Source: Bryum argenteum
Lineage: Eukaryota > Streptophyta > Bryopsida > Bryales > Bryaceae
NCBI GenBank assembly: GCA_037043015.1
Contig: CM073321.1
Span: 24,503,510-24,567,509 of the forward strand
Reading direction: 5' to 3'
DNA: 64,000 bases
Below are positions 25,642-49,279 of the stretch, in pieces; position 1 is the first letter of the stretch; the number at the start of each line of letters is the position of its first letter. The notes under the pieces were generated by a model. It searched no databases and was not told the origin of the DNA. It was given only the letters and a program-made list of their open reading frames with translations. Made by a program: the position numbers and the translations under genes.

Positions 25642-25689
25642 AGGCGCACCCTGATAGAGAAATGACGATGTTTAGCGCCAGGTGGTGAG

Positions 25690-27005
25690 GAGAATGACGC
25701 GGCAAAGTCCAGACGCAAGTGATATAATAAAAGTCTTCATTTTATTGAATGATGTGACTAAATGGTACTATCAACAAAACGTGGTACACCATCCAATAAT
25801 TCGAAGACTAACTCGGAGGACCTACTCGCCGCCTTCAATGCCGGACTCCTGTAAAACAAGGAGCGCCGGCTTTAAGATTCCTACAAATATCAAGCAGCAT
25901 ACAAGCCGAGCAAAAGTACGAGCAAATGCTCATCAACCAGTCAAACGCGCAGACATGTAGGCTAATTATAACCCTATGAAAATGATGGAATAAAATAAAA
26001 AAATCATGGGAGAAACGCATCTATATGTCATAATATAGGTGCACCCACAAGAACTTTGAATAATAAGGAGATAAAGAATGAAAGGGTAATAGAAGTGATA
26101 ATAACACCTGCATTAGCTAATAGGGACCCTTTGAATGTGATGAAAGTGTTAAGGAAATCATAGGAGAATGGCAACTATGAGCTTGAGCTTACATGGGAAT
26201 ATTTAAATTGGGAGAGTTTGAAGTAAGGAAGCGTATGCAAATATATAAACAAGAACGGAGTAAAAGGAGTCTTGACAATTTTCCTAAGTAATTCATATCA
26301 TATAAAAAATATGGTAAAAATCTTAAGGCCACATGAAGAAGGGAAGTATTTTTCTCGAATTACCTATATCTAATTAGACATTTTTGAATTGGTGGTGACT
26401 GTGTGCAGATGTATAAGATGGAAAAGAGAGAGAATTGGTTTGTGTTTAGATAAGCTAATAAAGACCATATAAAAATGTGAGACCCATCAAAAAAATTTAA
26501 AAAAAATCACAACTATTTATCCCGAATTACTATACAATGGTCGAATTGACCAATACTTCGAAAAATAGCGGGAAAATAGTAAAGAGGGGACGAAAAATAA
26601 TTTTAAATCATAAACTAGTTAATAAGCACCTTATGATCATGATGCAACAATAAGAAAACTCATACGAGTGACGGATTCATAAGGTCGATTTTGGTTCAAG
26701 TATTCGAAACCACCACAAATTTCAAAAATAAAGGTTAAATAGATAGAGGTGAGGATAATATGATTTTAACACTTGGTCTAACTCATAATGACCCTATTGA
26801 AATGACGGAATCATAAAAAAAACCATAGGGGAATTGCATCTATATGTCTTGTTTTAATGGCAACCACCGGAACTTTGAATAATAAAGACATAAAGAATCA
26901 AAGCTTAGGGTAGAAGAGGTGATACTAACATTTAAACAAGCTAATAAGAACCCTATGAATGTTATGGAAGTGTTAAGAAATTCAAAGGAGAATGGGAACT
27001 ATCTG
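25690..27005. repeat. Divergent direct repeats in F
   Basis: AT-rich, no credible gene. A module of ~100-250 bases recurs in diverged form, recognised by phrases like CTAATANGAACCCTATGAA and ACTTTGAATAATAANGA (near 25960, 26050, 26115, 26790, 26870, 26940). The module at about 26160-26290 is a paralogue of the site into which copy B inserted. Confidence 0.6.
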
Positions 27006-27013
27006 CTTGTGCT
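27006..27013. other. Target site duplication of copy B, left
   Basis: CTTGTGCT, identical to 46397-46404. Eight bases is the hAT hallmark. Confidence 0.95.
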
Positions 27014-27112
27014 CAGGGTTGTCTTATTAGACACAATTTTGGGAATGTCTGTCTGATTTGTCGTATTGGACATGTCTGTTAGACGTCGAGTCGACGAAAA
27101 TGTCGACCGTAC
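27014..27112 (-). repeat. Left terminal and subterminal repeat of copy B
   Basis: Starts CAGGGTTGTC. After 22 bases shared with the right end, subterminal motifs TGTCTGTCTGA and GACATGTC follow. Nearly identical to 14083-14182. Confidence 0.92.
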
Positions 27113-27209
27113 CAAAAATTACATAGTAAAAAACTTGCTGAGATTTACCTTGAGGTAAAAAGCTATTTTCCTATGTGGCGTAGGGTTGATAATGACGTGG
27201 AAAATCAAA

Positions 27210-27590
27210 ATACACGTCACATTGGGCGACCGCGGGTGGGCGACCTCGCTAGGCGACTGACGGTCGCACCGTCAGTGAACGTCGGTCGCCTACTGCGACC
27301 GCCGATCGCCCTGGCTGCCGCGAGAAGGCAACCGGCGGTCCAGTATGGAGACCGGCGGTCGCCCTGGCAACCGCTAGTAGGCGACCCCCGGTCCAGTACT
27401 GAGCGACCGACGATCGCCCAGGGCGATCGTCGGTCGCTTATAGCAATCGGCGGTCGCCCTGGCAACCGCTATTAGGCGACCGCCGGTCTAGTACTTAGCG
27501 ACCGACGATCGCCCAGGGCGATCGTCGGTCGCTTATGGCTATCGGCGGTCGCCCTGGGGGTAGCGCCCATGTGGCGATGTGTGTGGTGAC
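27210..27590. repeat. Subterminal GCGACCG palindrome array (copy B, transposase end)
   Basis: Palindromic units alternate between GGCGACCGCCGGTCCAGTA and GCGACCGACGATCGCCCAGGGCGATCGTCGG types. A ~110-base block is duplicated in tandem (about 27350-27460 and 27460-27560). Confidence 0.85.
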
Positions 27591-27594
27591 CAGC

Positions 27595-27926
27595 ACTATG
27601 GTTGTATATGAAACAAGAAAAATATATCCATATTGGTACAAAATGAGCTTCAAAGCATTTTTATGAATACCTTTTTATCGGAACCAAGGTCAATGGTGCA
27701 TTTCAAAGTACAAATTTGCTCATGTCTATAATCATAGTATTCATATATATGATGTAACTATTACATATACCAAACTATATGTATTATACTCCCGAAACAT
27801 ACTAGGATACCAAAGTATTGTAAGCTAATAGTTGCCCTACTTGCAGTACATTGTAGTATTGTACCGAGTACTAACAATGAACTTCGTGCTTCCAATCCAA
27901 AATAACACAATTCTAATAACCCGTCT
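27595..27926. other. 3' flank of the transposase (copy B)
   Basis: AT-rich, no gene; counterpart of 13351-13685. Confidence 0.5.
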
Positions 27927-30900
27927 TTAGGTATCCTTCAATGTATACGTATCGTCGCTTGATACTTCATCTGCGTTTGGATCGGTTTCACCTAGAGAGT
28001 CATCAGTGCTTTGGTCGCCATCCTCGTCTTCATCCTCTGTCTCATTGCGTACTTCACACTCAACCTCACTCGCCAAATTGCGCAATTCCGTGTCCGTGGT
28101 TGTTTTCTTGTTCACTGTAACGAGGCGCTTCAAGGGCCGTGAAGCATTAGTGATCCCGTTTGCGTTCAGTGGTAGATGGCGCATTGTACGTGTATTCGGA
28201 TTATTGGATGAAGCAATCCCAGCATAGACTTCTTCATGTACGCGTGCTCCTTTCCGACATCGTCGATCGTGTGCCTTCCTCAAACGCTTCTGGCCTCGTG
28301 TAATACGATTGCGAGGTTGTGTAGATGGCCCGACGTCTCGTGCCACTGCTAATGCCCGGTTGCATGTTGGACTTGTTGGTTCTATCTTGACCTCCATCTT
28401 CGGCAATACCATACGAGTTGTATGGGCCCCTTTAGGTTGGGTAACCCTTGGGAACAATTGTTGTAGAGGTACATCGGAGTCATCTCCGTTAAGAGTTGAA
28501 TTCCTTGATCGAATGGTTGAAACTCTAGGTGACCCCACTTCCATGCAACCTGAATTGGATACATCTTCAGGTTCCACTTTAATTTGGTCCATTTGAACTC
28601 CTGTCGTGGTAACCGTGCACTTCACACTCTCAAGTTTATCGTCGTTGTTAGAGTGTGGGCTGCCTTTAAGTGGACCAATGTTCTCTTCATCCATCCGGTT
28701 TACCAAGTCTTGTTTTGCTAGGCAGGTACTCTCTTGGAGTTTTAAATTTGCCACTCCTTCTCCTTCTGTGTCGCTGGCAAATACCGCAAACTGGCGAGGC
28801 AGTTGTGGAACATCCTGGTCGTCATCGAACTCAAACGGGTCCTTGACATGAATAGTCATGTTTCCTTCGTTGTCGTTCCAATTCTCTAGGTCATCGTGTT
28901 CGCTACCGTCATTGACATAATTGTTGTCATCCGCCTCCGGGTTATCCATGAATACACCATCATCCCATTCATTGTCGGGTACATAGTCTTCTTCGTCAGA
29001 GTCCTCTTCTTCTAAGTTTTTTTCGTACCACGTTCTCGGCGATTTGGTACGTTTCTGGTGCTCGAGTTTGGCGTTCGCATAGATGTACACAAGGTCTTCT
29101 GCTTTGGAAGTTGACAACCGATTCCTCACTTTGTTGTGCACGAAAGAGTACATGCTCCAATTCCTCTCACATGATGAAGCTGAACATGTCAATGCCAAAA
29201 TCCTCTTCGCAATTTTTGGCAAGGCATTCCCCTCAATTTGATGCCACCATTGATGTGGTAACAAGTCACAGTGAGCTGGATTAGGGGCCTCTGAATTGGT
29301 GTTAAATGGACCCGTCCTCTCCTCATATTGTATAAATTCCCGCACCACTTCCTCATAGACCACTCCCATTCGGGCGCTAAGCTTCCTTATGACCCGGTTT
29401 AAAGCTCTTTTTGCTTCTCCATTGTTTTGAATTGCTCCCATATTTGTCAAATAAAGGTTCAACAAAGCTGCTGCATAGTGGAGGTCTGTGAGCATCATTT
29501 CCCATCGTTTTTGAAATGCATCCTCGTATTTTGTAGCAATGTCGGGGGATAGTTTGAATGGAGGTTCACGCAAAGAGAACACGTGTTCCTTAAGGTCCGC
29601 ATGATCACATACGCCCTGGGCATGGCTGGTACTTCCCCGTCGAACTCCCGAAGAGCTAGGAGTACTGGTTCAACTACTTTCACAAACTTCGTACAATTCT
29701 CCCAGAACTCATCGCTCCTAATGCTAATCCGCACATTCCTTGCCTTTGTCTGTAACTGGTGACTGTTTTGCCTGTTGAACAATGTTTGGACAAACACATG
29801 CCACTCCGCATCGATCACCATGTTGTTCAGAGCTTCTTGTAGCTTTAACAACCGCTCTATCATCAAGTAGTTTGTTGCAAATCGAGTCTGAGGTGGTACC
29901 TTGAGCTGCAGCTTCGGCGAGTACTTCCTGAATAGAGCAAGGGGGACGTGGGACCCCTTAATAAATGTGCACACTCTCTTGGCTTGCTCCACCAATTCCT
30001 TAACCCACGCCTCTTTCCCCCAATCTTCCAGAAGGAGGTCTAGAATATGTGCCGCACAACCTTGTCCATACAAGTGAGGATAGTCTATCTGCAACTTCTT
30101 CACAGCACCTAACATGGAGCTTGCATTGTCGGTGCATATGTCGCGCACCTCTCCTTGAGGAGTGCCCGCAACACCAAGGGCCCAAGGGGGACACCGGAGT
30201 GACGCCCGGGCCTTGGGGTGCCAAGGTGAAGGGAACCTAAGTGGGCCTAGTGTGGGAGAGGACCCCGGGCGTTGGAGACGCCTCTCACCCACGGAGACTA
30301 GGAGCCACGACGGAATGGACATGAGATTATGGAAGCTCATGTTGCCACGATTCCGGGATGCTAAGGAGCACCTCAGTTGGAGGTGTGAGCTAAAAGTTAT
30401 GGGAGTTGGAAGATTGTGGGACTAAAAGGGAGTGCTGTCCAGGGACAGTGCTGGACTGGGAAGCTGGCCCGGGACTCCCGAATCTTCAGAGGGGCATAAC
30501 TCCCTCAATACTTGTCGGAATGAGGCAAGTAAGGTGTCTATCGGCATCTAATCGACGAGTAGATGTCGATAGGGTGGTCGCTCGTTGCGTTTGGATGCGG
30601 GACGAGGTAGATACGAGCCCTGGAAGGTTCGGGAAGTCTCCCGGGGCCTTCCAGCGGCTAAGGCATTGGGAGATTGGGTGGTCTTCCAAAACTAAGAGGT
30701 GTGAGGGTCCAGCCCTTCACCTAGGACCAGGGGGCTGCCGAATCCCACAGAGTATACTATGGGGAGGGCTGGTCTCCCTCCCCACTCCCATGGTGCCTTG
30801 GTGGTGACCAAGGTGGGAGTCCCCAGTGGTGTGGCTAGTGTTGGGGCCTCACCATGGGGACTCCCAAGCCAAGGTGAGTCCCAATGGGTGGAGCTAGTGT

Positions 30901-32439
30901 TGGGGCTCCACCATGGGGACTCAAAGTGCAAAATGAGGCACGGTGGGTGGAGCTAGTGTTGGGGCTTCACCACGGTGGCTCATAAGGACAAGGTGAGTCC
31001 CGGTGGGGAGCTAGTGTTGGGGCTTCACCACGGGGACTCATATAGGCAAAATGAGGACCATGAGTGCTACCGATGTGGGGTGGTGTCTCACCGCCGGCGT
31101 TGTGATTACTTGGTGGCCTTGGGGTCACCATGGTGGTCATGGGCGGTGGTGAGGAGACACCACCAAGTGCGGTTAGGCCGCGTGGTATGGGAGTGCCACC
31201 AAGTTGGGCCTTGGACATAAGTGGAAGTCCGCACCTAACCATTGGCTACCTACGAAGGGGTTGAGTCCCGGTTGCATGAGTAAGAGGGATTGATAACCAA
31301 GCAGTGAGCTTGGTGGTTGGTATGGAGAGCTAACTTTGTGCATGTGGGGGATGTGCAGAGTTAGCGCTCGTGACACTTGCTAGAGTTGGGAAAAAGTTGG
31401 TGTAAGCCAAGGTGAGCTAGCAAGGGTTGCGACAGCATATCTGCACGATGTTTTGTGGTCCAACCTCCTCTATGTACTTCGCCATTTCATTTGCCACATA
31501 AGCGATGTCCTTTTTCTTCCCTGTAGTATCCACTGATCCCAGAAACACCTCTCCCACTGGGCAAACAAGCATCATGTTAATGAGTGGTCTGCTTGTGACA
31601 TCGGACCACCGATCTGAGCATATAGCTCCTCCGTACTTCTCGATAGAAAGTTTTGTTCGATCCTCTACCGACCTTTGCACAACTGCCTTCTTGGCATCGA
31701 GCATCGTAGTCCTAATAGCATGATACGAGGGTGGTTGATATCCACCAATACCGGCCTTTGCTGTCTCTTGAACGGCACTTATGAATGCTGGATGTCGTAC
31801 GACATTGAATGCAATGTTTGCCTCATAGAAAAATGAAGCCCACTTTGCATCCAAATTTTGCCTAATGGCAAGATCAAAACTATCCTCCATACTCCTTTGC
31901 CCATGTCGCCGTCCACTAGAGAGTGTAGAGATCCTTTGTCCATTGGTGCCATGACTCCCCTTGTTAGAGGATGGCACCTGATTAGACCTTAGGTTAGGGG
32001 ATGGCACTTGTACAGACTTGATGCGAGGGGAATCTATGTTCCCTATAGTTTCCCTTGCCGCATATGGTATGCCGGCATCCACTCGTGAGTCAGGAACAAC
32101 ATCCGCATAAGAAATGGTGTTCTTTGGAACTATCCCTCCGCAGTCACGGAATAGCTCGAGAACTCCACGGGGCAACCTCGTACACCGGGGTAATGGGGAA
32201 TTGTGAGGATATCCGAAATGAGCAAATGCTCGTTGCTTTACAAAGACTGTGCTTTTCCCACAGAATAAGCACACGCGAGTATTTGGCTTGTCGTTCCGTT
32301 CCGTGGATACTCGTAGCCACTCGTCCCATTTGCAAGTGTCTCTTCTATTATCTGGTACCCTATTGGATTGGGAAGAATGCTCCATGTTCTGGAACCGCAC
32401 CTCCGCTGCTGCAATGAAAGCGGTGACGACAACACGCAC
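27927..32439 (-). pseudogene. hAT transposase, copy B (interrupted by a solo LTR)
   Basis: Same enzyme as 2205-13350 but more complete. Start either at 32439 or at the internal ATG at 32385, which matches copy A. In order: BED-like zinc finger (WDEWLRVSTERNDKPN...CLFC), DUF659-like core with CSDRWSDVTSRPLINMML, CTDNASSMLGAVKKL, a long helical region, the hAT C-terminal block SASSCERNWSMYSFVHNKV near 29170, and a long acidic tail ending at 27927. About 1050 residues after removing the LTR. Breaks are the solo LTR at 30139-31434 and a one-base frame offset near 29580, at the same codon as in copy A. An intact relative in the genome would have to drive any remaining mobility. Confidence 0.9.
30139..31434 (+). 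mobile_element. Solo LTR of the chromovirus family, fossil
   Basis: 1,296 bases nearly identical to the LTRs at 3997 and 10761, flanked by a 5-bp duplication GCATA (30134-30138 and 31435-31439). It lies antisense to the transposase and at a different codon from the insertion in copy A, so it is an independent event. A solo LTR arises when the two LTRs of a full insertion recombine. It looks recent. Confidence 0.95.
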
Positions 32440-32556
32440 TACAAGGGCTCAAGTTACTCTTTGCACATATAGACCGAGCAGGGGGCTTCTCATGGGGAGA
32501 CCCAAGACAACGGGCCAAGCGCAAAAGAAAGTGGCTTCGAGCCCGTGAAGGACTCC

Positions 32557-32563
32557 TTATATA
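32557..32563 (-). promoter_or_regulatory. TATA box of the transposase (copy B)
   Basis: TATATAA on the minus strand, about 40 bases downstream of the array at 32600-32770 and about 120-180 bases before the possible start codons. Confidence 0.6.
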
Positions 32564-32599
32564 CTCCATACTTCTGTAAGTCGGGGGCAAATGCGCATA

Positions 32600-32770
32600 G
32601 AAGGCGACCGGCGGTTCGGCTAGGTCGCTACAGCCAGATCGGCGGTCGCCCTAACAACAACGCTGTCGCGCCATATGAACCGGCGGTCGCCTTGGCGTTG
32701 ACTTCATCGCGCTAAGTGGACCGTCGGTCGCCCTAGCCCTGACCCAGTTGGACCGCCGGTCGCCCTAGCG
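32600..32770. repeat. GCGACCG palindrome array upstream of the transposase (copy B)
   Basis: Mirror of 1815-1990, nearly identical. Units include GGCGACCGGCGG, GATCGGCGGTCGCC and GACCGCCGGTCGCC. Confidence 0.8.
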
Positions 32771-32774
32771 ATGA

Positions 32775-33305
32775 CAGATTTTTTCGACGAAGAGCACTTT
32801 ACTCTTCAAGTCAATATCCATGGTCCACGCAGTACAACTATTATTAACTAGAATCCCGGAGACCATGTGGCTCAAAAATGTTTGATTTGCAATAATGCTT
32901 TTCTTTTGAAAAGAAAAAAAAATAATAAAAATAAAGGGAACATGCGAAGGCAAGAGAGAGAACAATAAGGACTCATATTAGAAACTAGAGTTTTAACTTC
33001 TCCTGCTCCAAATCCAAAAATTAAAGGGATGAATATTGCTCAATCCACATTTCCTAAATAATTAAGAATGATAAAAATTGCCATGTATCAATGACGGTAC
33101 CTCGGACATTGAAGGTTTTTCCTTTATGCTTATACCACATGCAATAGTGAGATTTCATTCACCAAGAATATTTAAATTGAAGAAAATCAAAAACTTCATA
33201 TTCACATTCAACGTTTTTGCATACAAAATGGCAATTGCACTTAGTGTTTGGTATTGAGTACACTACTTTTCTACAACTGCTAAAAAGACGTGATTAACTA
33301 ACTAC
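32775..33305. other. AT-rich spacer between transposase and P1 (copy B)
   Basis: No gene; counterpart of 1285-1814, with an A-rich tract near 32911-32935. Confidence 0.6.
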
Positions 33306-33308
33306 CAG

Positions 33309-33986
33309 TCATTCTTCGCTTGGGCCCCCTTCATTGTAAAGTTGGCTTGGCCCCCCTTCATCAAAATGTGCTCGACCTTCTTCCATCGTTTGGTTCGGCT
33401 CCCCTTCATCCACTTCTCGCCTTTCGGTCCCTTCTTCTTCCGAATCTGACCAAACTATGTCCTCATCAGGGATTCCTCCTTTGTAACCCCTAGGTGTTGT
33501 AAGCCCTTCTTGTGGGTTGGCCGCTGGATAAGGAGCTCGCGGAATATGGGGTTCTGTTGGCTTAATTGTTTGAGGGGATTTTTTAAACGTCCTCCAATCC
33601 ACCTCCCTCTGCAAAATTACCTCCGCGTACACCATTTGTGCTATGTTGTACGAAACCTCATTGCTCACCACATGCACACCGGCGTAGAGGAACTTCCACA
33701 CTTCAATGCATCGTTGCACAAATTCATCGTGATGGCAATAGTGCAAATTTGCGCAATTCAGGCGGCGATGAAACTCGTGACGATAGTGTGGAAACAAATG
33801 GCCGATGTGGCACCAAGCAATGTACCACTTGCAAGTCTTAAGGGTCCACGGTTCCTCTACTTGCGCCCACCCCGGAAAAGCATGTTGCGTGGGATCTATA
33901 AGAATCTTGTGAAATCTCCTTTGCTTCTTTCCTTTCCTCTTGCGGTCCTTGTCTCTCGCTATCTTCCGCTCCTGGCTAGGCGTCAT
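33309..33986 (-). CDS. P1 cargo protein, copy B (unrecognised family)
   Basis: 225 residues from the ATG at 33986 (MTPSQERKI). It is nearly identical to the copy A protein through the basic N-terminus and the AFPGW / WYIAWCHI / LHYCHHDEFVQRCIEVWKF / YNIAQMVYAE core. It differs mainly in the tail, which has fewer GGPSQ repeats. The frame is intact; with the copy A protein it is the best preserved cargo gene here. It lies downstream of the array at 34255-34735 and is transcribed in the same direction as the transposase and P2. Confidence 0.75.
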   Translation of the reverse strand: MTPSQERKIARDKDRKRKGKKQRRFHKILIDPTQHAFPGWAQVEEPWTLKTCKWYIAWCHIGHLFPHYRHEFHRRLNCANLHYCHHDEFVQRCIEVWKFLYAGVHVVSNEVSYNIAQMVYAEVILQREVDWRTFKKSPQTIKPTEPHIPRAPYPAANPQEGLTTPRGYKGGIPDEDIVWSDSEEEGTERREVDEGEPNQTMEEGRAHFDEGGPSQLYNEGGPSEE

Positions 33987-34254
33987 GGTCACCCAAATGC
34001 TAACCAAGGAAGAAAATTTTTAAACTAACTCAAAACAAAGTTATATCTATTCCGTGGACTAACACAGAATTTAGAAAACTCGAAAATCGGGCAGCATGTA
34101 TGTGTAAAATGCACACGTGTGGCACGTATGTGCCAATCACCGCACGCTCTAGCGCTCGAACAAGCAGGCGGCAACCAGAGGTCGACACCAGACAATGCGC
34201 AAGGCTCGACACGTGGAGGTGAAAAATGGCGACTGGCGGTGTCCGCGCGCGTAT

Positions 34255-34735
34255 ATGTAACCCTGGTTCTAGGGCGACCGCCGATTCAGCTGAAGGGCGA
34301 GCGTCGGTCGCCAGGGCGACCGCCGATCCACCCGATGGGCGAACGTCGGTCGCTGGGGCGACCACCGATCCAGCGGATGGGCGACCGCCGGTCCACCTGG
34401 TGGGCGACCATCGGTCAGAGGGCGCGACGTATGCGTGGGGTCGCGAACTCTGGATCGCGCGACCGCCGATGCAGCGGACGGGCGAACGTCGGTCGCTAGG
34501 GCGACCGCCGATCCAGCTGATGGGCGAACGACGCTGACAGGGCGACCGGCGGTCTACGTGATGGGCAAGCACCAAGGAGAAAGTGTCCGCGAGCCTCCGC
34601 GCACCCTCCTGCTGGGGCGACCGCCGATCTAGGCGATGCGCGAACGTCGGTCGCTAGGGCGACCACCGATCCAGCTCATAAGCGAACGACGGTGACAGGG
34701 CGACCGGCGGTCTACGTGATGGGCGCAAATATCTG
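34255..34735. repeat. GCGACCG palindrome array upstream of P1 (copy B)
   Basis: The largest array in B. Units such as GGGCGACCGCCGATTCAGCT and GGGCGAACGTCGGTCGC alternate in head-to-head fashion. Part of it (about 34460-34560) is repeated at 34620-34720. Confidence 0.85.
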
Positions 34736-34739
34736 CTTC

Positions 34740-35450
34740 CCCCCCTTTTGCTACAAATCTTTTTCTGCATATTTGAAATCATGTACGAATCATTACCTTT
34801 AGATGTTTTGGGGGGTTTGTAAAAATATTCATCGACTCTAAAACTTGCAACTAAATCCCACCATATATTTATACGTAATTTCAACAACTTAGTTACGATT
34901 CCAAATTTTTACAAATTATTTATCATTACTTCATCGTGGAGCAATACTAATCAAAGCTTTCCAAAATTCAATATCATTATATATACATATGGAATGGTAT
35001 AGACGACATAATTTTCTAAAAGACCACTGTCCAAAGTATCCACCAACCTACGAACATACAAACCTACCAACTTAAATAATTACCAATCTACATACCATTC
35101 TAAGAACCTCTTTTTACATATTTCCAAATCATGCATTTAAAATAAAAAATAAAAAAATAAAAAGAATGAACAAGATGATTAAAATAACACCGTGCGCATA
35201 TATACAAATAATAAACATAACATCGTTCAACGGGTATCTTACTAGTAAAAACATATCATATAATCAAAAAGATACATTGTATAACATCCAGCCTAGCACT
35301 TATCTCCCAACTTTCAGTTCACAAATAAAATAAAGTAAATGGATATAACCAACACACGAACGTCTTTCTAGAATTTGATTCCGCTTACTCTAATCTTCTT
35401 CCATTGTACTTTCGATTTTTTATCAATGGTACCCGACTCGACATTTCTCC
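34740..35450. other. AT-rich spacer between P1 and P2 (copy B)
   Basis: No gene. A short stretch of ACCTACCAAC-type repeats lies at 35035-35100; the matching stretch in D (62140-62430) is expanded. Confidence 0.5.
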
Positions 35451-35456
35451 TTTGTC

Positions 35457-37004
35457 TTATTTGCAATACATAGATCTTCGATCCTTGCATTTAAGAACCT
35501 CTCCTCTTCTCATGAGCACAAGTAGCTTTTTGACCAACTCCTCGGTTGTTTCATTGCGTTGTGAACTTTGACCCTCTTTCGCAATATCCACGGTTCCATC
35601 TATTCTATTGAGGACTAACTTTTCCTTGTTCCCCTTCAATCTTATTGATGCTAGGTTCACCCTTTCGATCTTAGCTCTCAAGGCATCGCATGCCGAAATG
35701 AGTTCCTTTAGCTCCTTCTCAAAATGACCTTGGTCCTTGGCTCCTTCAACCATAAAATCCTTCTCGCGACCCCAATCATTGACCACAAACCATTCGTCGA
35801 CGCGCTTGTATCTCCTATGCACATCCTCGAAATGTTTCATCTTCTTTATGAGCTCTTCCTCATAATCGACCTGATCCGATGCAACCAGAGCTGGGAGAAC
35901 ATTTGTTGCCTCCTCTTGGATCTTCATTTTTGCATCCTTGATTACCTCTATGTCATGTTGGAGTTCAATACACTTTGCCCGTTCGTATGACAAAGCATGA
36001 AACAAATATTCATAATCCTCATAAGCCTTGTTCAACAACTTCATCCACGAATCATCGTTTTCATTCGGGCGTTTTGCTTTGAAGACTACTTGAACTTCCT
36101 TCTCGACTCTACTTCTTCATTTCCTTCTCTTTTCGGTTTGTTCAATCGTTTCCATTGGATATTCTAGAGTCCCATCCTCTACGCTAACATTTGTTTGAGG
36201 AGAGGCGCTCATAGCGGGCCGAACTATAACTTCGGATGGACCCAAAGTACAAGCACCAAAAATTGCTTCAACCTCCATGTATTCAATGACATCCGCTTCT
36301 CCTTCTATTCGTAGGTCCTCGACGTGCTTCACAGGTGCATCAATCACATCCAAATCTTGCACGCTTGTTTCACCCACATGAAAGTGTTCAACGCCACCAA
36401 TAGAACCTTCTACAAGAGGAGTATGATGCTCCCTCTCGTTAACCTCTTCTTCATCAGAATTAGGATTTTCCCAAACATACACATCATCAGCATCCCCATC
36501 TTTTCGATGCCTTGTCGCCGTAAGTCCTTCTCGTGGGTTTTTTGTCAATGGAGCTCTTGGAATATCTTGCTTGGTTGGAAGGAAGAATTGAGGCGATTTT
36601 TTCATTGAGCTCCAATCCACCACTTTCTCCAATAATACCTCTGCATACACCATTTGAGCAATATGATACGAAACCTCGTTCTTGGTGACATTCTTGCCTT
36701 TATAAAGGAACCTCCACACGTCAATACATCGTTGTACAAATTCGTCATGCTTACAATAGTGCAGATTTGCAGCATTTAATTTCAAGTGCGTCTCATGTCG
36801 AAAGTGTGGAAACAACTTGCTGATGTGGCACCAGGCGATGTAATTCTTCACTGTTGTCTGACTCCACACACCCTCTTCGGTCTCCCACCCCGGAAAAGCG
36901 CGTTGAGTGGCATCTTGGAGAATACGGTGATTCCTCTTCTGTGTTTTTCCTCTCTTTTTGCGTCGCTCCCCAAGTACTATTTTACGTTCCGCAATTGTAG
37001 TCAT
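35457..37004 (-). pseudogene. P2: coiled-coil member of the P family, copy B
   Basis: A roughly 510-residue product. Start MTTIAERKIV at 37004. The core reads RAFPGWETEEGVW, YIAWCHISKLFPHFRHE, NLHYCKHDEFVQRCIDVWRFLYKG, VSYHIAQMVYAEVLLEKVVDW. An acidic linker follows, then from about 36110 a second half rich in Lys/Glu heptads (EDYEYLFHALSYERAK; EELIKKMKHFEDVHRRY) that should form a coiled coil. One extra base in an A-run near 36120 separates the halves; copy D reads through that point. A palindrome array lies upstream at 37195-37400. Function unknown. Confidence 0.7.
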
Positions 37005-37194
37005 TGTTACCTCCGATCACGGAAATGCCGCTATGATGTGATGTTAGATACAAAACACCAAAAATAGTGCAGTCCACGTTGGCCTCCAAACGAGCAAGCA
37101 AGTGGCAACTTTGAGTCGACACCAGACAATGCGCAACACCACGGCACGTGGACTGAAAAGTGACGACTACGGGCAATTACGATTGTATTTAACC

Positions 37195-37400
37195 ATTTGT
37201 GGCAGGGCGACCGGCGATGTCCCGGCGAGATCGTTACGACGACCGCCGGTCCAGTGTTTCTTGCAAGACTTGCTCCAGGGCGACCGCCGGTCCAGCTGCA
37301 GCAGACCTCCGGGGCGACCGCCGGTGCAGCTTCAGAAGAGTTTCGATCCAGCCTCAGCGGAGCGCTTCGGGGCGACCGGCACTCTGCAGGGGCGACTTCG
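37195..37400. repeat. GCGACCG palindrome array upstream of P2 (copy B)
   Basis: Units such as GGCGACCGCCGGTCCAGCTGC occur several times between the P2 start and a spacer. Mirror of 58935-59130. Confidence 0.8.
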
Positions 37401-38705
37401 CGAGAGCTCCCGCTCTTTTTCTTGGATCCTCTTTATGCAATATTCAAATTTTGAATTAACCGATTCAAGCATCTCCCCCATTCCCCCCTTCAATCCCCCT
37501 CATCCCCCCTCATCCCCCCTCATTCCCTCTCATTCCCACTCACTTCTTCCTATATCTCATTCCCAATTGAAAATGATTTTCATGGTCATGGGCATTTTGC
37601 CAAGAGCGGTGACCATGATACATGAAAAATGATTTTATGCTCATTGGATACTCTTGTGGTGTAATATGGATTTAGATCAATACAAGTTTAATCACAATTT
37701 ACAAAATTATAATTTTCAACATTCTTAGAATTCTCAACATAAAATACTCATCAAATATTGGTTCCAAAAGTACCCTCAGGAACGGGTTGATAAGAATGTC
37801 CGCAAATCATTAGTCTTCTTCACTTCAAATATTTACCTTTATATACTGGTCACTCATTTTTTCTCCAAACATATAATATATCATGATATATCACCTTTTA
37901 ATTTGGTAAGCAACTATTTCTCTCAGTGCTTTCTAGGGTATATGCACTAATTCCATTCACTTAATTGTATTTCAAGGCCTTATTATTTGACTTGCCAAAA
38001 TTTTCAAAATCCTCCCCCCTCTCAATTTAACCAATTTCATAATGTTATGAGCCCATAAACTCATTGCAAGGATAATCTATCAGTCGGATATTGTATACGG
38101 AGATCTTATATTAAATAAATTAAAGTCTCCACTTATATATAAAAAGAAACTAGAAATTGTTCTTGAATGTGATGTTAGAATATGAGGTGGAGTTTTGGTG
38201 CAAAAATGGTATCTTATCTAGATGCTAGAAATTGACTACCTTGGATTACATTCTTAGATTGTAGGTATTGAATCGTTAGATTCATTAAAGTGTTTTCATG
38301 CATTGAAGAGGCTGATGCTCTATAAATGAATTCACATTTTATCACTTATTATAAATGGTTAGGCACAATATGACTTCTTAAAATATACACCATACAAAAT
38401 AATATATACCATTCATGCCTACAAAGAGGACGAGGAACTCTCACCCCATCCTTCCTCCCATTCATTATTATCCATTTACACATCTCTTGTCCATTTCTTA
38501 GGAATTGAATGATCATAAAATGGGAATTATGGGACCTACGATCCGAAATTCCTACCCTATGCATACCTTCCTAATTTTTAAATTAATACATTATAAACTA
38601 AAGGGCTCTTTTATTCCTCCCCCATCCAATATTCATCCTCATCTCATGATTCTCATCCTCGTAGGAGCTGCTATGAAACCTGATGCACTCCCATTCAACA
38701 TAAAG
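37401..38705. other. AT-rich spacer between P2 and P3 (copy B)
   Basis: No gene. A C-rich tandem stretch around CCCCCCTCAT lies at about 37480-37550. The D counterpart is 57395-58676. Confidence 0.5.
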
Positions 38706-38709
38706 AGGT

Positions 38710-39090
38710 GAAATAGGGCAACCGCCGATTCAGCTCATGGGCAAACGTCCGTCGCTAGAGCGATCGGCGGTCCGGCTTTTGGGCGAATGTCGTCGGCCGC
38801 TACGGCGCGATCGTCGTCGGCTTTGGGCTTAACGTCGGTCGCTAGGGGCGACCGCCGTCCAAACATGGGCGAACGTCGGTCGGCCGGGGCGTCGGGCGGT
38901 CAGCCAATGAGCGAACGTCGGTCACAAGGCGACCGCCGGTATACCTTATGAGCGAACGCCGGTCGCTCATGGGCTTAACGTCGGTCGCCGGGCGATCGGG
39001 CAGATGATATCTGGCGATAAATTTGGACCCGTGAAGCGACCGACGGTGCACATTTTGTAGACCGCCGGTCGCCTTATCATCGCGCTTAAG
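38710..39090. repeat. GCGACCG palindrome array upstream of P3 (copy B)
   Basis: Units GGGCGAACGTCGGTCGC and GGCGACCGCCGTCC alternate, more diverged than in other arrays. Confidence 0.75.
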
Positions 39091-39215
39091 AACGCGACGA
39101 GCGATCCATTTTCACACTTTGCGAGTTCCTCCTTTTCGCGCATTGACTAGTATCGACTTGAGTTCTTCGCTTGCTTGCTCGTAGAGGACTTTGCGTTTTT
39201 CTACGAATTTTTCTT

Positions 39216-40392
39216 ATGGAGGCACTACCCGTTGTAGCGGCCACATCCATGGTGCGCCATGACCGAGGTCGGATTGCGAAGAAGCGCAGAGCTATCTTGA
39301 AGAATCCAAAGATAGTAGCGTTTAGAGGATGGGAGGAAGAGAGGGGGCCGTGGTCTTTTGCCATATGTGAGAAATATGTGGAGCCACATCAACAAGCTCT
39401 TTCCTCTACATTGGCACAATATTCATCGGCACAAGAATGAAGCTAACCTCCGAGAGTGCCATCATTACGATTTCAAAGCGAGATGCATCTATGCTTGGCA
39501 TATGATATACGGTAACAACCATATTTTTAAATATGAGGTTCCCTACTTTTAGGCAAAAATGGCATATGCGGAAATGATTCTCAGGAAGGAGGTGGATTGG
39601 TGGACGCATCCACGTTTGCCTATACAAGAGAAGACCGAACCAATAGAGGTTGGAGAGACATCAAAGACTATTGAAGTAGATGGAACTGGAACTATACCTA
39701 TGAGTCCTAAGGCCAACGCGGAATTTTACACAGCAGGGTCTTCTTCCGAATCCTCGGAGGATGAACACACACACGAATACGAGCTCTGTGAACCAACTCG
39801 TCCTCCAATAAATTGGACTGAAGGAATTTCCTTTGAGGCAAATCCACTTCGAAAAGTGGGTGGAAGATTATCCAAAGTCATGGATACTTTTATCATTTTG
39901 CACAATTTCAGTATAGGAAAATGCGTGGAGTTAGTAGTGCAGAATATAAAGGAATTGGAAGCCCTCAAAGAAAGAATTCTTTCTGCACCATACGATGTAC
40001 AAGAAGACTGTCGGGAGCTTTCGGAAAAAGCTCTAGACAGCATAGCTGACATGGAGACCATGCTTGTGCTACGAAAAGAGGCTCGTGAGAAGTTTTTGGA
40101 GAAGAAAAATTCAAACAGCCTTTCCATAGAAGACTACGTAGAGTTCTGGACAGCGAAAAATATTTACCTGGAAGGGGTCCTAGCTGAGAAGAGGGATCGG
40201 TTGACGGATATTGAAGAATCTATTGCTCTAGAGGTAGATAAAGAGATGCTACGCATTCGTGATTTGGCATTTGCGGGTAAGTATGGCAAGACTCCAGAGG
40301 AAGTTGACAAATTAAAGAGGCTGGTGAAATGGAGTGAAGACCAGAATGTAAAACTCGCAAAGCAACTACGTGTAGCTGAGGAGAATGCTTGA
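39216..40392 (+). pseudogene. P3: coiled-coil member of the P family, copy B
   Basis: About 390 residues if unbroken. Starts MEALPVVAATSM at 39216. The core has KIVAFRGWEEE, a degraded YVEWCHINKLFPLH region, NEANLRECHHYDF, CIYAWHMIYG and MAYAEMILRKEVDW. The second half is strongly helical: LVVQNIKELEALKERIL, MLRIRDLAFAGKYGKTPEEVDKLKRLV and following heptads. Lesions are a small frame-changing deletion near 39380 and a stop near 39550. It is the only P gene of B on the plus strand. Copy D has the same gene at 55691-56931. Confidence 0.7.
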
Positions 40393-41000
40393 TTCGAGGA
40401 CGCATGGGCAGAGTGGGCTCATCGTAACGCAAAAGTTGACCAAAAGATAACGCAAAAGTTGACCAAAAGATAATGCAAAAGTTGACATCAACATAAACGC
40501 AATCGACGTTGATTTGGAACCGCAACGATCACTTTTTTCAAAGGGCAAGGAAAAAGTTGAAGATTCTTAACGTAGAGGCGATGGACTTACACCCCCAACA
40601 TTCACCAAACGATATTTGATTTACGTTAATTAGGTGTAGGGAAAGTGTACGTAATTTCTTCTATGTACTTTTTTGCATACACTTTATATATGGAAGTTTG
40701 TTTTTACCTTTCATCATGCGTAAATACGTGTTTGTGCATTGGTACAAGGGGTTGGGTGGGTTATTTGGACTATGAAGATGTAAGATACAATAAAAGCTGA
40801 CAAAGTACAATCGATAGACCACAAGCAAAGGAGTGAACCAAATACATACCATTGATTTAATCGATGCAAAAAGTAGTACAATAGGAAATGAGATACATTG
40901 TTGCAAAAAGCTGCCACTCGATAATACTATAATAAAATATAGTCCTATATAGCTAAAACCATACGCTATGCTGGAGTGTATGGATTCACAATATCGTAAT
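40393..41000. other. Spacer between convergent P3 and P4 (copy B)
   Basis: No gene. Near 40430-40480 a ~22-base unit around GCAAAAGTTGACCAAAAGAT is repeated in tandem. This is the shared 3' region of two convergent genes. Confidence 0.55.
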
Positions 41001-41002
41001 TA

Positions 41003-43326
41003 TCATTCACTAGGCTGAGGGTTGGAGCATTCTCCAACAAGAAGTTTACGCTTTGCCCGAGTTCGATTGAATGGACCATCTGCATTTAAGATCAGATCTA
41101 AGACTCTAGAGTCTTTCAAGTCCTGCAAAGTCCTTCTTGTGAGGGGACTATGTACATCCAGTAAATAGTCTAGAGCTTGTGACTGGTATCGTGGCCCCCA
41201 AGTAGACTCACCATACTGACACTCTTCCAAATCTTCCATGGAGGCATGACCTTCACCGTCGGTTACTCTCTTCCAATATTGATTCCATCAATGTCCTATT
41301 AGGTGGGGCTCCCACTTGAATGTATTAGAGCTCACATCAAAATAGCCTCCAAAGCATTGGAATAAGAACATCCGATTACCCTCATGCTGTGGACCTTGTC
41401 CGGCAAGTATTGGCGCAACTCTTAGAATCTTGTTTGGATCAGTCTCCCAATTCAATTGGGAGCTAGGAGTACTCTTCTCGAGATCATGTTCACCTCTACG
41501 CCAACTCCAAATAAGGTCTTTACCCCAGAATCGAACCTCGTCAGTAGTCTCAGCATTGTGTTCCCAAGAAGGCGGCATATAAGTTCTTAGATTGAACATA
41601 TCGTAAAACCGCTCGTGAAAAGGCGCTTTGCATATAGCACAACGACTTTGAGTCAAACAATGAACTAAGAGACACTGCGGATGATACATAGGGACACAAG
41701 AGCCTAAAGCCCATCCACCCTCAGGTCCAAATTGATTTAGGCATATGGGACATGTAGAGTGATCCAATACAAACTGCGGAGGGTTGGGCCACAATAATGT
41801 CCTGGATGCTGTGCCGACATGTGGTGTCTGAAATTCCACCCGGCCTTGCTCCAATCTACAACCTCTGTAGAAGTGTCATCTTGCATCTTGATGTCCATCA
41901 TAGGAAGATTATCAAACAATGTATCCACACTCGGCCACGAGGTCATACGGAACGTTCGTCGACCAGCTCCACTAGTAAGATTCTTATCGATCTTCTCAAG
42001 CTCCGCTGCAACTTGTCTCCATCTATCCACCGAAAGTATACATGCCACCTTCCAATGGTAGTAAGTGGCTGACAACTGCTCCAAACGAGCTTGCAGTTGT
42101 TGCTTTTCTTTTAGTAAGGAGTTGTATCCATCAGACGACATCAAAGGGGGATTACAAATAGGGGGGAACAGCGGTAAAGATAAAGAATCTTGAGAATCAC
42201 ATCGTACATCTTCTTCTTGTTCGAGGCCCGACATATTAACAACACATGGCTGAGCTTTCACAGGACGGCGCAATATAGGGCGTTGTGGTGACATTTCTCC
42301 AAATGCCAAGTCCTCTATAAGGTTGAAGACAACTCTATCAACATCCGCCATGTCTGATTTCTCTACATCTCCACGAATGTTACGTGCGTGAGATAGTTCT
42401 TGCATCTTCTCGCGCATGCGTGCATATTCCACAGAAAGCTGCTCCCCTTCTTTCACCTTCTCCTCATACATTGCTCGTGTTTTTTCGAGATCCGCTTGCA
42501 ATCTTGCTATGACGTCGTCTTTACTCTTCAGAAGAGCTTTGAGATCGGAAGATGTGTCAAGTTCTTCCAATGGTAAGATGCAAGTACCATGGGGCTCTAC
42601 TACGGTTGGATGATTACTTGCTATTGGAGGGCGAGAGCCACCTATTTCAGGAACGCGGCCAGGTAAATTACGACGATGATCCACATCAATCACAACGCTG
42701 GAGGGAGGAAGAGGTTGTTGTACTTGACGCACCGCCTCACGAGGCCGCGAACCATCTGAGTCATTGTCCTCTTCCGATATAGCACTATGATATGAAGCCT
42801 CTTCCATAGCCTTGGTAATAGACCTCGTCACTCCCATGCCACCATTAGGAGCGTCAAGGAATCTTAGAATGCCTGTCGGAATGTCACTCGTTGAAGGTTG
42901 TGTTACATGCTTCCCCTCTTTGACAGTTGTCCAATCCACTCGTTTACCAAGAGCAACCTCGGCGTATACTCCACGAGCAAGAAACAATGGAACCTCGTTG
43001 CGCTCCACACATGGTATGCCATACAGGACTTGGCAAACCTCAATGCATCGTTGTTTGAAGTTTGGGCATTCGCAAAACTTAGGATTTGCCTTATTGGTGC
43101 GCCGATGAAAATGGTGACGAGACAGAGGGAATTTCTTGTCAATGTGACACCATTTAATGAACGATTCGCAAGTGGCCATCGTCCACATATCTGGTTCATC
43201 TTCCCAACCTCTGAAGGCAAGCTTATTTGGATTTTGAAGCACGTGTAATCTTTTCCGTTGTGGAGCGCCCTTCCTCTTCCTCTTCTTGTCATTCTCTTCC
43301 TTCCTAAGTTGCCCGAGAGTAGCCAT
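41003..43326 (-). pseudogene. P4: RING and coiled-coil member of the P family, copy B
   Basis: About 770 residues if unbroken, start MATLGQLRKEEND at 43326. P core: NKLAFRGWEDE, FIKWCHIDKKFPLSRHHFHRR, CIEVCQVLYG, ARGVYAEVALGKRVDW. Then an acidic linker, a coiled coil (LKALLKSKDDVIARLQADLEK), a second helical region, and a RING finger: CPIC, 14 residues, C, YH, C, C, CAIC, a complete set of eight likely zinc ligands at about 41615-41760. The C-terminus includes YQSQALDYLLDVHSP. RING proteins usually act as ubiquitin E3 ligases. Lesions are a 10-bp deletion relative to D near 41812 and a stop near 41285. It diverges from K across a shared array. Confidence 0.75.
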
Positions 43327-43459
43327 GGATGAAATAGCCAAAAATGGCAAATAGTTATTACCTACCCCGCCTGAGCATGCAGCCAATTTAATGGATGTAT
43401 GACAACGCGCTAGGCCAATAAATCCAAATAACAAGTTAAGGTACGATGGGGGAATATAT

Positions 43460-43795
43460 ACGCCGGGGCGACCAGAAATTCAAGGCGACCGGCGGTCCAG
43501 ATAGAGGTATGGCGTTGCGTGGCGACCGCCGTTCCAGTGAGAGCGCGACCGCCGGTGCAGCTAATCGCGACAGCGGGAGGCAGGGCGACCGATGATGCAG
43601 TTGTTCGCGACATCGGGACGTAGAGCGACCGCCGGTGCAGCTGTTCGCGACAGCGGGACGCAGGGCGACCTCCGGTCGAGCTGTCGCGACTGTGGGACGT
43701 AGGGCGACCGCCGGTGCAGCTGTCGCGATAGGGGGACCTGGGGCGACCGCCGGTGGGCGACTGTAGGGCGACTGCCGGTCTCCAGGGATATATAA
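43460..43795. promoter_or_regulatory. Bidirectional promoter region with GCGACCG array, P4 / K (copy B)
   Basis: Seven or so ~50-base units of GCGACCGCCGGTGCAGCTG followed by TCGCGACAGCGGGACG-like sequence. TATA-like sequences face both ways: GATATATAAACC near 43787 for K (plus) and GGCGTATATATTCC on the minus strand near 43453 for P4. Confidence 0.75.
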
Positions 43796-43974
43796 ACCCC
43801 AACGCGCGGGTTTGATATTACTTTTCCCCAAACCGCTACCGAATTCTCCTCCGCCCTGTGTCCTTGCTCGTCTTAATGATGCGCACTGCCGGGTCGTCTG
43901 AGGAGTTTTTGGGGTTTGGTGCACATTGATAGCAAGGGGGAGATTTTTTGCCGGTTTTTTCAAGAAATTCAGCG

Positions 43975-45524
43975 ATGAGTAAATCCAAAAAGCACGGGAA
44001 GGGACAACGAGCATGGGATCTGGATGCCCCCGAAACATTTGCACCAGACCTTGGTATGCAACAACCTAGTGGAAGTGGAGGCCATAAGAGGAAGAGGAGA
44101 CACCCAAAAGAAGAAAGACCCGGATTCCAACATCGATTATACTAGGTTTTGCGGAAAAAGCATGCATGGATTGGTATGAGGAAACGGAGGCTCAATTCCT
44201 AGAGCACAACTACCTCAGGAATGTTAGCACGGGCAAAGAGAGATCAAGAAGAAATTGGCGGCGGTAATTTTGAAGGCCATGGAGGAAACGGATAAATACC
44301 AAGATGTGGATTATCATTCGCAGATGCGAGTTGTGGATGGATGTCTGGTTGAACAATGCATCTTCAATGTAAAGGAGTTGTGGAAGAAGCGATTTGGAAC
44401 GAGGCGTCTAACACAAGAAGAGGACCAGTTTAAACGCAAGATGGATTGGTGGCAACACACAATCCAAAAGCTTAGCAAGAATAAAACCCAAGGGAAGTCA
44501 TGGGAAAAAACCGCTTTGCGCGCCACATTTGAACGAGACACAGGGTCGGGGGTGGTGTGGATTCCTCAAGATGCTACGATAGAAGCTCTATTAGGCCGCA
44601 ATATGGAGGGAGGCCATGGATTTGGTGCGGAAGGTGAAGATACTTGGAGTAGACCACGTTCCAGAAAATGTCGAGTTTGCAGCAAAGCTTTCCAAGAATA
44701 TGAATATTCAGAAGAGGAGGATAGAGACTGCAGCAGAAGCCCTTGTATGTCTTTTGAATCATCCAGGAATTATCAAGTTTTGGGCTTTGCATACAAGGAC
44801 ATTCGAAGCTTACTCATATTGGTGGAATGGGGGATTACTACACGAGATGTTGAAGTTGGATGAGAAGGTCGGGGACAAACATCTTCACTGGTCGAAAGTG
44901 AAGGAAGTTCCGAGTCTCACTCCAGAGGAGGCTTTCAGAATTAGCCTTTTCCGTCAGCACATGATGAAGTTAGCTTGGGGTTTAGTGTACATCATGAATC
45001 TCGTGCATAAGACAGGAGTTCTTCACAACGACCTATCCCCCTCGAACATACTATTGCATTTCCCAACTTTCGGAGGAACCAAGATTTGTATTGGAGTGTG
45101 TGACTGGGGGATGGCATCTCGTATAGTAGAACAACAGCCTTCACGTGACGGATACCAGACGACGCCAAAAAAACAAGAAGATATGACACGTCGATGGTGG
45201 GTGGCGCCCGAGTTGTTCTATACTTATGGACCTGAAGGTTTTGATACAAATTTGAACGTCCAGGAACTTCGACATCCAACCACGGTAGTATCAGATTCGT
45301 ATGCGGTTTGCAAGCTCATCCAGCTAATTGGTGTGCATAACGAATTCGACGAAGAATTATTACCGAATTCGACGGTGCGAGATTCATTCCTAACGAAAGT
45401 GTTATCACTGACCAGACATGAATCGGAGAAGAGAATGACCTGTGGGGAGGTGGTGAACCGCTTGATGGCGAAACCATATCATACGCTTCCACCGGAGTCT
45501 GTATTTAGTGAGGACAGTTATTAG
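43975..45524 (+). pseudogene. K: protein kinase-like cargo gene, copy B
   Basis: Starts MSKSKKHGKGQRAWDLDAPE at 43975. The N-terminal ~100 codons carry at least two frame changes between 44130 and 44260; from about 44255 it reads VKELWKKRFG onward, with another shift near 44640. Kinase features: EFAAKLSKNM (VAIK-like Lys), LNHPGIIKFWALH, HNDLSPSNILLHF (catalytic Asp and metal-binding Asn present), CDWGMA (DFG equivalent), RWWVAPELF (APE), then a C-lobe ending near 45524. HND for HRD and DWG for DFG make it an unusual kinase, though the key acidic residues stay. A role in phosphorylating transposase or P proteins would be speculation. Confidence 0.78.
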
Positions 45525-45925
45525 TTTATGATATGAGTATATCTTCTTGCAATTCATAGACTCCTATGGATGACCATCTCACGTCATTGAGTGCTCATTT
45601 AGCCATGTAATTCACAAATTATACTTGCAATATATACAATCTACTTTTTGACATATTGTTCCAAATCTAATAGATTTTTGCAACTCTTATAATTATGTTC
45701 CCTTTTTACACTAGTCACATATGTATGTCACCACATTTTTTGTTACATGAGTTTCAAACCTCATGGTTGATGTTAGCCTTTTCTTCAGGGGTTTGTGGAT
45801 TGTTGTAATTTGTTTCATCTTGAATTCTTAATGCTTCATCTACGTTTAAAAACGTGAACGGAAGAATTTTGGATAATGTTAGATAAAAAAATTGACTTAT
45901 TCTACTCGGGGGAAGCCTCCAATGC
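45525..45925. other. 3' flank of K (copy B)
   Basis: AT-rich, no gene; matched by 18816-19222 in copy D. Confidence 0.5.
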
Positions 45926-45929
45926 AAGG

Positions 45930-46220
45930 CCAGCCTAGGCGACCACCGGTCCAGGGGCCAGAATAGGCGACCGCCGGTCCAGCGAGACCGCCGGTCCAGC
46001 GAGACCGCCGGTCGCCCTGGGCGATCGTCGGTCGCTCATGGGCGATCGTCGGTCGACCCTGGGCGATCGTCGGTCGACCTGGGCAATCGTCGGTCGACCA
46101 GGGCGATCGTCGGTCGCTAAGGCGACCGTCGGTCCAGAGAAGGCGACCGCCGGTCCGGCCAAGGCAACTGCCGGTCTAGATGAGGCGACCGCCGGTCCAG
46201 TCCTACGTGGCGCGGTCGCG
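45930..46220. repeat. Subterminal GCGACCG palindrome array (copy B, kinase end)
   Basis: Very regular ~25-base units: GGGCGATCGTCGGTCGAC type in the middle and GAGGCGACCGCCGGTCCAG at both sides. Confidence 0.85.
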
Positions 46221-46309
46221 AACCGTATTACTGAGCTGTAGAGGCCACGTGGCAGCCACGTAGGATGCAACGTGGACAGGGTAAATCCAGCGTAAAAAAA
46301 AGATTCTGT

Positions 46310-46396
46310 AGATTCTATTAGACATTCTGAGGCTCAATGTCTGTCTGACATGTCGTGTCTGTCTGACGTCCGTCTGTGTCTAATAAGACAACCCTG
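46310..46396 (-). repeat. Right terminal and subterminal repeat of copy B
   Basis: Read inward from 46396 it begins CAGGGTTGTCTTATTAGACA, then GACGTCAGACAGACACGACATGT-type motifs. It shares 22 exact bases with the left end, and the AGACAGAC motif beyond that. Confidence 0.92.
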
Positions 46397-46404
46397 CTTG
46401 TGCT
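46397..46404. other. Target site duplication of copy B, right
   Basis: CTTGTGCT, identical to 27006-27013. Confidence 0.95.
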
Positions 46405-49020: not shown

Positions 49021-49025
49021 GGGTG

Positions 49026-49243
49026 TACACTAAATTTGATAATTAGTGTTAGATACACTAATTTACATAAACATGTTATAAGTTTTTATTGTTCAATAAT
49101 TTTACCCACTATATTGGCCAAGGTGGGGTCCTTATATAGTATTAGAATCAATGCTCTTGGTAATTCTTTTAAACAAAAGTAAAAAAATTTATAGCATTCT
49201 CAAATCTTATAATAATCTAACACTAATTATCAAATTTAGTGTA
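49026..49243. repeat. 218-bp inverted-repeat (MITE-like) unit in F
   Basis: Perfect 28-base arms, 49026-49053 (TACACTAAATTTGATAATTA...) and 49216-49243, enclose an AT-rich core. It could be a small nonautonomous DNA element or a hairpin; I cannot define a target duplication. Confidence 0.6.
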
Positions 49244-49279
49244 GTGCTAGAAAAGTCAAAAGTTAGTATATGAATTGTA

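Follow-up and report, generated by a model that had tools for sequence, protein, structure and literature searches.

The 64,000-nucleotide stretch of Bryum argenteum DNA analyzed here (the window; assembly GCA_037043015.1, contig CM073321.1, positions 24,503,510 to 24,567,509 of the forward strand) contains a 19,383-bp transposable element of the hAT type at positions 27014 to 46396 (plus strand; element coordinates 1 to 19383). We consider it likely that this element represents a family of giant, autonomous-type hAT transposons, in which a transposase, four apparently paralogous proteins (P1 to P4) and a protein kinase form a fixed six-gene unit of about 19 to 20 kb and in which the P proteins act on arrays of the motif GCGACC/GGTCGC. 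The same genes recur in the same order in many large copies bounded by target-site duplications, and the six-gene set is therefore the element itself.

The window element is flanked by identical 8-bp target-site duplications (CTTGTGCT; 27006 to 27013 and 46397 to 46404), and its terminal inverted repeats (27014 to 27035, plus strand, and 46375 to 46396, minus strand) match over exactly 22 bp (CAGGGTTGTCTTATTAGACACA, starting CAGGG). The ends of hAT elements are typically short inverted repeats of the CAGRG type. Minus-strand pieces between 27930 and 32448 matched the Pfam families DUF659 (E values of 3.1e-22 and 1.1e-11) and Dimer_Tnp_hAT (5.7e-6) above the curated cut-offs, and together the 8-bp duplication, the short CAGGG ends and the transposase domains identify a hAT element. 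A first-pass annotation had already described the exact duplications, the perfect 22-bp ends, the internal hAT transposase and the genes P1, P2, P3, P4 and a kinase-like gene, all of which we recovered. It had also called the element complete, which is true of its extent but not of its condition: a solo long terminal repeat (LTR) interrupts the transposase gene, and of the five other genes P1 alone is open, with a stop or frame break in each of P2, P3, P4 and the kinase gene.

The transposase gene (27927 to 32385, minus strand) encodes the DUF659 and Dimer_Tnp_hAT domains and is split by the 1.3-kb solo LTR (30139 to 31434), which is flanked by the 5-bp duplication GCATA. P1 (33309 to 33986, minus strand) encodes about 225 amino acids with the domain shared by the P proteins, here called the P domain. 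In P2 (35457 to 37004, minus strand), which has one stop in the window copy, this domain is followed by a tail, and P3 (39249 to 40392, plus strand) combines it with a broken frame. P4 (41288 to 43326, minus strand) joins the P domain to a C-terminal RING finger (41627 to 41755, minus strand), a match to PF13639 at an E value of 2e-4 and 22 bits, below the curated cut-off of 27.3; the frame break in the window copy precedes the RING finger. The last gene, encoding the protein kinase (43948 to 45524, plus strand; PF00069, E value of 1.6e-11), also contains a frame break. All six genes were single exons in the copies that we fetched.

The window lies on a 44.1-Mb contig (C1) of the source genome, which comprises 25 contigs totaling 258.8 Mb. 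A 20-base sequence from the element end occurred 269 times exactly in the genome (136 and 133 times on the two strands), while the same pattern written backwards, used as a control, did not occur. We fetched 12 end pairs in full, picked from the listed ends and all located on C1 up to 37.6 Mb, and read the ends alone of ten further large copies, picked by gene positions beside listed ends. Four of the fetched pairs, f (30.0 kb), h (17.7 kb), l (13.2 kb) and m (19.7 kb), were colinear with the window element apart from insertions and deletions; l lacked P3 and P4, and h lacked part of the transposase gene. The remaining eight (a1, a2, c, d, e, g, j and k; 0.8 to 11.8 kb) had the same ends, and tblastn detected none of the genes inside them. 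What these gene-less copies have in common with the window element is about 0.2 to 0.4 kb at either end, patches rich in the motif and some of the noncoding sequence; a1 is inserted within the kinase gene of another large copy. One of them, g (L018-L019, C1:18325254-18339005), contains long open reading frames (ORFs) unlike the six genes, perhaps those of a nested retroelement.

Of the 12 fetched pairs, ten had an exact 8-bp duplication and a2 matched at seven of eight positions. The ten further large copies spanned 18.9 to 20.0 kb in eight cases and 29.7 and 32.9 kb in the other two; the far end differed from the 20-mer by one to three bases in eight, and eight of the ten had exact duplications. 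Overall, the duplication was exact in 19 of 23 end pairs (the window's own, 10 of 12 and 8 of 10). Among the 15 large copies including the window's own, it was exact in 12, reciprocally swapped in two and unmatched in one (h). The swapped copies, at 10.218 to 10.238 and 10.437 to 10.456 Mb on C1, have the flanks TTCACACG/CCGGTCAG and CGTGTGAA/CTGACCGG, which are mutual complements, as expected if two opposed copies recombined and inverted about 218 kb. Copies of this hAT family have thus rearranged their own chromosome.

Fourteen of the 22 further end pairs were large and contained at least three of four marker genes each (four judged by sequence, ten by gene positions), and none of the 22 enclosed just a small transposase unit, the arrangement against which the first-pass annotation had set its proposal; most of the 269 ends were not examined. 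The genome search for end-bounded copies that it had suggested returned the same genes in the same order, with exact duplications in 12 of the 15 large copies. Two more copies lie partly within the window: copy A (1 to 14182, minus strand), which is reversed, has its left end at 14182 and runs off the window, and an older copy in two halves, C (18705 to 23585, minus strand; P4 and kinase, element coordinates 14185 to 19022) and D (54956 to 63996, minus strand; P1 to P3, element coordinates 6176 to 14188), the latter also running off the window. Copy D had been described as holding the whole gene set in order; D is one half of the older copy, and the order is kept once both halves are joined.

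We then followed four markers (P2, the kinase domain, P4 and a C-terminal piece of the transposase) across the genome, while P1 and P3 were followed in the fetched copies. Protein searches gave at least 132 matches each for P2 and the kinase domain, at least 86 for P4 and at least 85 for the transposase piece. Only the best candidates were scored (131 of 1331 for P2, 128 of 895 for the kinase, 75 of 1550 for P4 and 75 of 958 for the transposase), so that the true numbers may be higher and the lack of a partner is not evidence of absence. Merging of pieces left 125, 126, 75 and 75 listed matches for P2, kinase, P4 and transposase, respectively, to which the following counts refer. Of the 75 P4 matches, 66 had their nearest kinase partner and 56 their nearest P2 partner within 25 kb and on the side and strand predicted by the element; of the 75 transposase matches, the same held for P2 in 53, for P4 in 27 and for the kinase in 33, and of the 125 P2 matches, for the kinase in 76, for the transposase in 54 and for P4 in 56. 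When positions were shuffled within contigs (five pairings, 200 shuffles each, with the sizes of contigs other than C1 estimated), the means were 1.3 to 2.5 and the maximum was 8. The matches formed 208 clusters, with four markers in 23, three in 35, two in 52 and one in 98. The 23 four-marker clusters were all in order (17 on C1 and two each on C5, C7 and C8, the window's own included), and 17 of them spanned 16.0 to 18.2 kb. These clusters, and a gene order far above that of shuffled positions, bear out the earlier proposal that the cargo is a stable part of the element, although "cargo" is probably the wrong word, as the genes behave as accessory genes of the element.

Next, we examined the distribution of GCGACC/GGTCGC. 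Of 68 sites in the window element, 64 lie outside genes (8.2 sites per kb outside genes versus 0.35 inside), and three other stretches of the window had 0.2, 1.6 and 0 sites per kb. Seven arrays hold 65 of the 68 sites. Two lie 0.2 to 0.5 kb inside the element ends (left subterminal array, 27226 to 27552, 14 sites; right, 45939 to 46219, nine sites), and five precede genes, 142 to 288 bp upstream of the six gene starts: six sites at 32604 to 32763 (219 bp from the transposase start), 16 at 34274 to 34705 (288 bp from P1), four at 37207 to 37377 (203 bp from P2), seven at 38837 to 39072 (177 bp from P3) and nine at 43468 to 43748, shared by the divergent P4 (142 bp) and kinase (200 bp) genes. 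Across seven copies (the window element, m, l, h, f, A and the older copy with its halves C and D), an array of at least three sites stood 142 to 323 bp upstream of 32 of 33 locatable gene starts, which are not 33 independent events because the copies share ancestry. The left subterminal array is split in copy h, and the gene-less copies have 2.6 to 16.4 sites per kb inside (3.5 in g, with 6.0 outside). Within the window element, site spacings no longer than 130 bp fit a period of 10.4 bp (R = 0.52, n = 58), a value reached by none of 10,000 uniform-spacing controls. With the same short motif clustered before each gene of a fixed set, the element looks like a self-regulating package rather than a one-gene transposon.

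P1 to P4 share about 130 residues, of which 22 to 24 positions are invariant, including a Trp-Cys pair, two His and two further Cys. The P domain had no Pfam family and no confident fold match, and the alignment suggests that P1 to P4 are four paralogues with a domain not described before. The P2 tail is predicted to be largely helical in a low-confidence model. Several frames broken in the window are open elsewhere: a P2 frame of 526 to 544 amino acids in 8 of 30 fetched loci, P4 continuing into the RING finger in one frame in copies h, m and f, stop-free P4 frames of 760 amino acids and more in other copies, and stop-free transposase frames of 1059 and 1073 amino acids in copies on C4 and C7. 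In copy l (C1, 30.63 Mb) the transposase pieces share one frame with two stops. Compared by sequence with solved hAT structures, the C-terminal piece of the transposase gave no match (four chance rows, E values of 0.52 to 0.73). Protein databases contained four relatives of P2, one of them full length (563 amino acids, 56% identity), and a search of viral contigs confirmed no P2 relative there.

For the kinase, we found 109 relatives at an E value of 1e-5 among 844 candidates. The two nearest have 525 and 520 amino acids, at 89 and 72% identity, and one relative comes from the moss Ceratodon purpureus (35% identity over 76% of the query). Full-length relatives of P2 and of the kinase at such divergence speak for maintenance of both genes over long times. 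Among 24 kinase sequences, K31, E48, N151, D170 (in DWG) and G172 were invariant and D146 (in HND) was present in at least 90%; we take these positions to include the kinase Lys and Glu, the catalytic Asp and Asn and the DFG-type Asp. If the 109 relatives also sit in such elements, the class would be old and widespread. As a separate observation, an ORF beside a P2 gene at L038 (C6, near 15.96 Mb) has a start closely resembling the Ceratodon kinase P0067, a second kinase type, and this neighborhood is perhaps a sister element.

We then asked how well the genes have been maintained. Nei-Gojobori ratios between copies were mostly 0.3 to 0.9, with the exceptions of P3 (0.8 to 1.6), P2a against D (0.7 to 1.1) and P2a between m and l (1.9). 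Measured against a neutral simulation in 25 gene-pair comparisons (uncorrected P < 0.05; "own" denotes the window element), replacement changes were too few in six (P4 own-f and own-m, kinase own-C and own-a1, P2a own-f and TnpC own-m) and stops in seven (P4 own-C and own-m, kinase own-C and own-h, P2a own-D, P2b own-m and TnpN own-f). Against the older copy (own-C), there were no stops in P4 (7.2 expected) and none in the kinase gene (5.8 expected). At 30 P2 loci, private changes were neutral (1.00), while the ratio was 0.78 for changes shared by two loci and 0.75 for those shared by three or more. Based on the shortages relative to the simulation and on the P2 ratios, P4 and the kinase gene are maintained at least as well as the transposase gene, mostly between amplification bursts and weakly within the last one.

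The exact duplications around large copies show that the whole unit moves. Beyond this and the ends, ordered gene set, open frames in other copies and arrays, all observed directly, we infer a mechanism in which the P proteins, with their basic N terminus, Cys/His domain and, in P2, the helical tail, would bind the GCGACC arrays. They may switch on or de-silence all six genes together and may also help the transposase to join the two distant ends. An element of this size would have to pair its ends and to express its genes despite silencing, and both needs could be met by a code common to the ends and the gene starts. The RING protein P4 and the kinase might tune the array system or act on host silencing, the least certain step. 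A bolder and more tentative extension would see this moss hAT lineage as a small self-governing genome, with one GCGACC code in both ends and before every gene, perhaps helically phased, the duplicated P proteins as its readers and its own RING ligase and predicted active kinase set against host control.

Several observations weigh against the proposal of a six-gene family with array-binding P proteins. Given a P domain with neither a Pfam family nor a confident fold match, the idea that the P proteins bind DNA is a guess, drawn from composition and anatomy. The simulation showed no shortage of replacement changes or stops in P1 and P3, and none of replacement changes in four of five transposase comparisons, and the private P2 changes are neutral, as given above. 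Nearly half of the listed clusters (98 of 208) hold a single marker, and copy h has no matching duplication. P3 in D is the exception among the gene starts, with its nearest array 2070 bp away, and copies m, l, h and f carry an extra array that is not near a gene start; it lies between P1 and P2 and was apparently severed from the P1 array by an insertion. Finally, when same-strand spacings were pooled in five large copies and in seven gene-less ones, the best-fitting period was 19.6 to 19.7 bp (R = 0.54 and 0.74, compared with 0.40 and 0.67 for 10.4 bp), so that the helical phasing may just mirror tandem duplication of 20- to 21- and 41-bp units.

Some of these points would suit a hAT of the ordinary one-gene kind with host genes acquired by chance, the captured block then spreading passively with a few master copies: many changes in the recent amplification look neutral, P1 and P3 show no constraint in the simulation, and gene capture is known for other plant transposons. 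We nevertheless regard this as unlikely, since the 22 further end pairs included no one-gene copy, relatives of P2 (56% identity) and of the kinase (72%) have kept their full length, P4 and kinase in the older copy are free of stops where 7.2 and 5.8 were expected, and an array stands upstream of all six genes in the window element. A composite origin, by fusion of separate array-flanked single-gene elements between two compatible ends, appears less probable still. It would account for subterminal-like arrays between genes, and gene-less elements also have internal arrays; however, the internal arrays sit at gene starts, and the first ten end bases (CAGGGTTGTC) have no exact copy inside the element (diverged ends were not searched for). 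A virus-derived element of the Teratorn or Maverick kind using hAT ends, which the size, several intronless genes, kinase and RING protein might recall, is very improbable, as ten ORF pieces contained no polymerase, capsid or packaging family (Pfam, E values up to 1) and no P2 relative was confirmed in viral contigs.

The proposed six-gene family shares with the hAT superfamily (Ac, hobo, Tol2 and the DUF659-type plant hATs) the 8-bp duplication, ends starting CAGGG, the DUF659 and dimerization domains, subterminal repeats and short non-autonomous derivatives, and differs in its six genes, its 19 to 20 kb and the arrays before each gene. The usual hAT element has one gene in a few kilobases. 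Ac, for instance, measures 4.6 kb in the accessible part of PMC3260210. Because hATs are usually seen as one-gene parasites, a stable six-gene hAT with arrays would mean that multi-gene self-control arose here too, as in VANDAL elements, which are of the Mutator type. As far as the accessible parts of PMC5735166 and PMC10398659 describe it, VANDAL21 of Arabidopsis (VANA/VANB/VANC) is likewise a multi-gene plant DNA transposon with tandem short-motif arrays in noncoding DNA; it encodes a protein acting on the element, VANC, which binds tandem motifs (PMC5735166). The element described here differs in its hAT domains and in a P domain outside Pfam families; it has the array feature (seven arrays), and no Mutator-type transposase was found in the ten ORF pieces by Pfam.

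In En/Spm, the accessory protein TnpA recognizes short motifs at the promoter and close to either end; En/Spm belongs to the CACTA superfamily, with a 3-bp duplication and with TnpA and TnpD made from one transcript. The likeness would lie in an accessory protein on short motifs at ends and promoter, should the P proteins bind as proposed. Other large DNA transposons with several genes are ToxhAT and the fungal Starships; according to the accessible part of PMC12506042, ToxhAT has a 2-bp TA duplication and 74-bp ends, is proposed to be a non-autonomous Tc1/mariner element and was renamed ToxTA, and Starships use a tyrosine recombinase. No DUF3435 tyrosine recombinase was found in the ten ORF pieces by Pfam. 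In Pack-type transposons, captured pieces of host genes vary from copy to copy; here, the same set and order recurred in many copies. Among the listed results of literature searches, which did not extend to subscription papers and preprints, neither this element nor any other hAT with several genes was described; the whole word hAT is absent from the accessible part of PMC6431247, on giant transposons, and hAT, cargo, giant, kinase, moss and bryophyte are all absent from PMC13317346, on gene capture in plants. The element also brings a protein domain not described before, a DNA code that can be tested, and two proteins, a kinase and a RING protein, that a transposon has retained.

The surroundings of the element in the window are themselves nested. 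A 31.4-kb insertion (23586 to 54955) splits the older copy and contains the 19.4-kb element; it is another large DNA transposon, bounded by 28-bp inverted repeats and an imperfect 4-bp duplication (TTGG/TTAG), and without the nested element it measures about 12 kb (23586 to 27005 plus 46405 to 54955). Its genes include a DUF7869 protein (52743 to 53531) and a match to NIF-type phosphatases (24631 to 25485). Copy A harbors an LTR retroelement at about 3997 to 12053, with RNase H, integrase zinc-finger and chromo domains, which we take to be of the Ty3-like class. Its two LTRs (3997 to 5287 and 10761 to 12053) are 99.5% identical to each other and 98.6 to 98.8% identical to the solo LTR in the transposase gene.

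Among the matches listed, C1 holds 93 of 125 for P2, 94 of 126 for the kinase, 54 of 75 for P4 and 54 of 75 for the transposase, and C1 may be a sex chromosome or a gene-poor one. The ends at C1:1296248 and C1:4334308 have the same flank (CCCCAGAC) and, by eye, the same next bases, with P2 about 4 kb inside, and are likely a segmental duplication.

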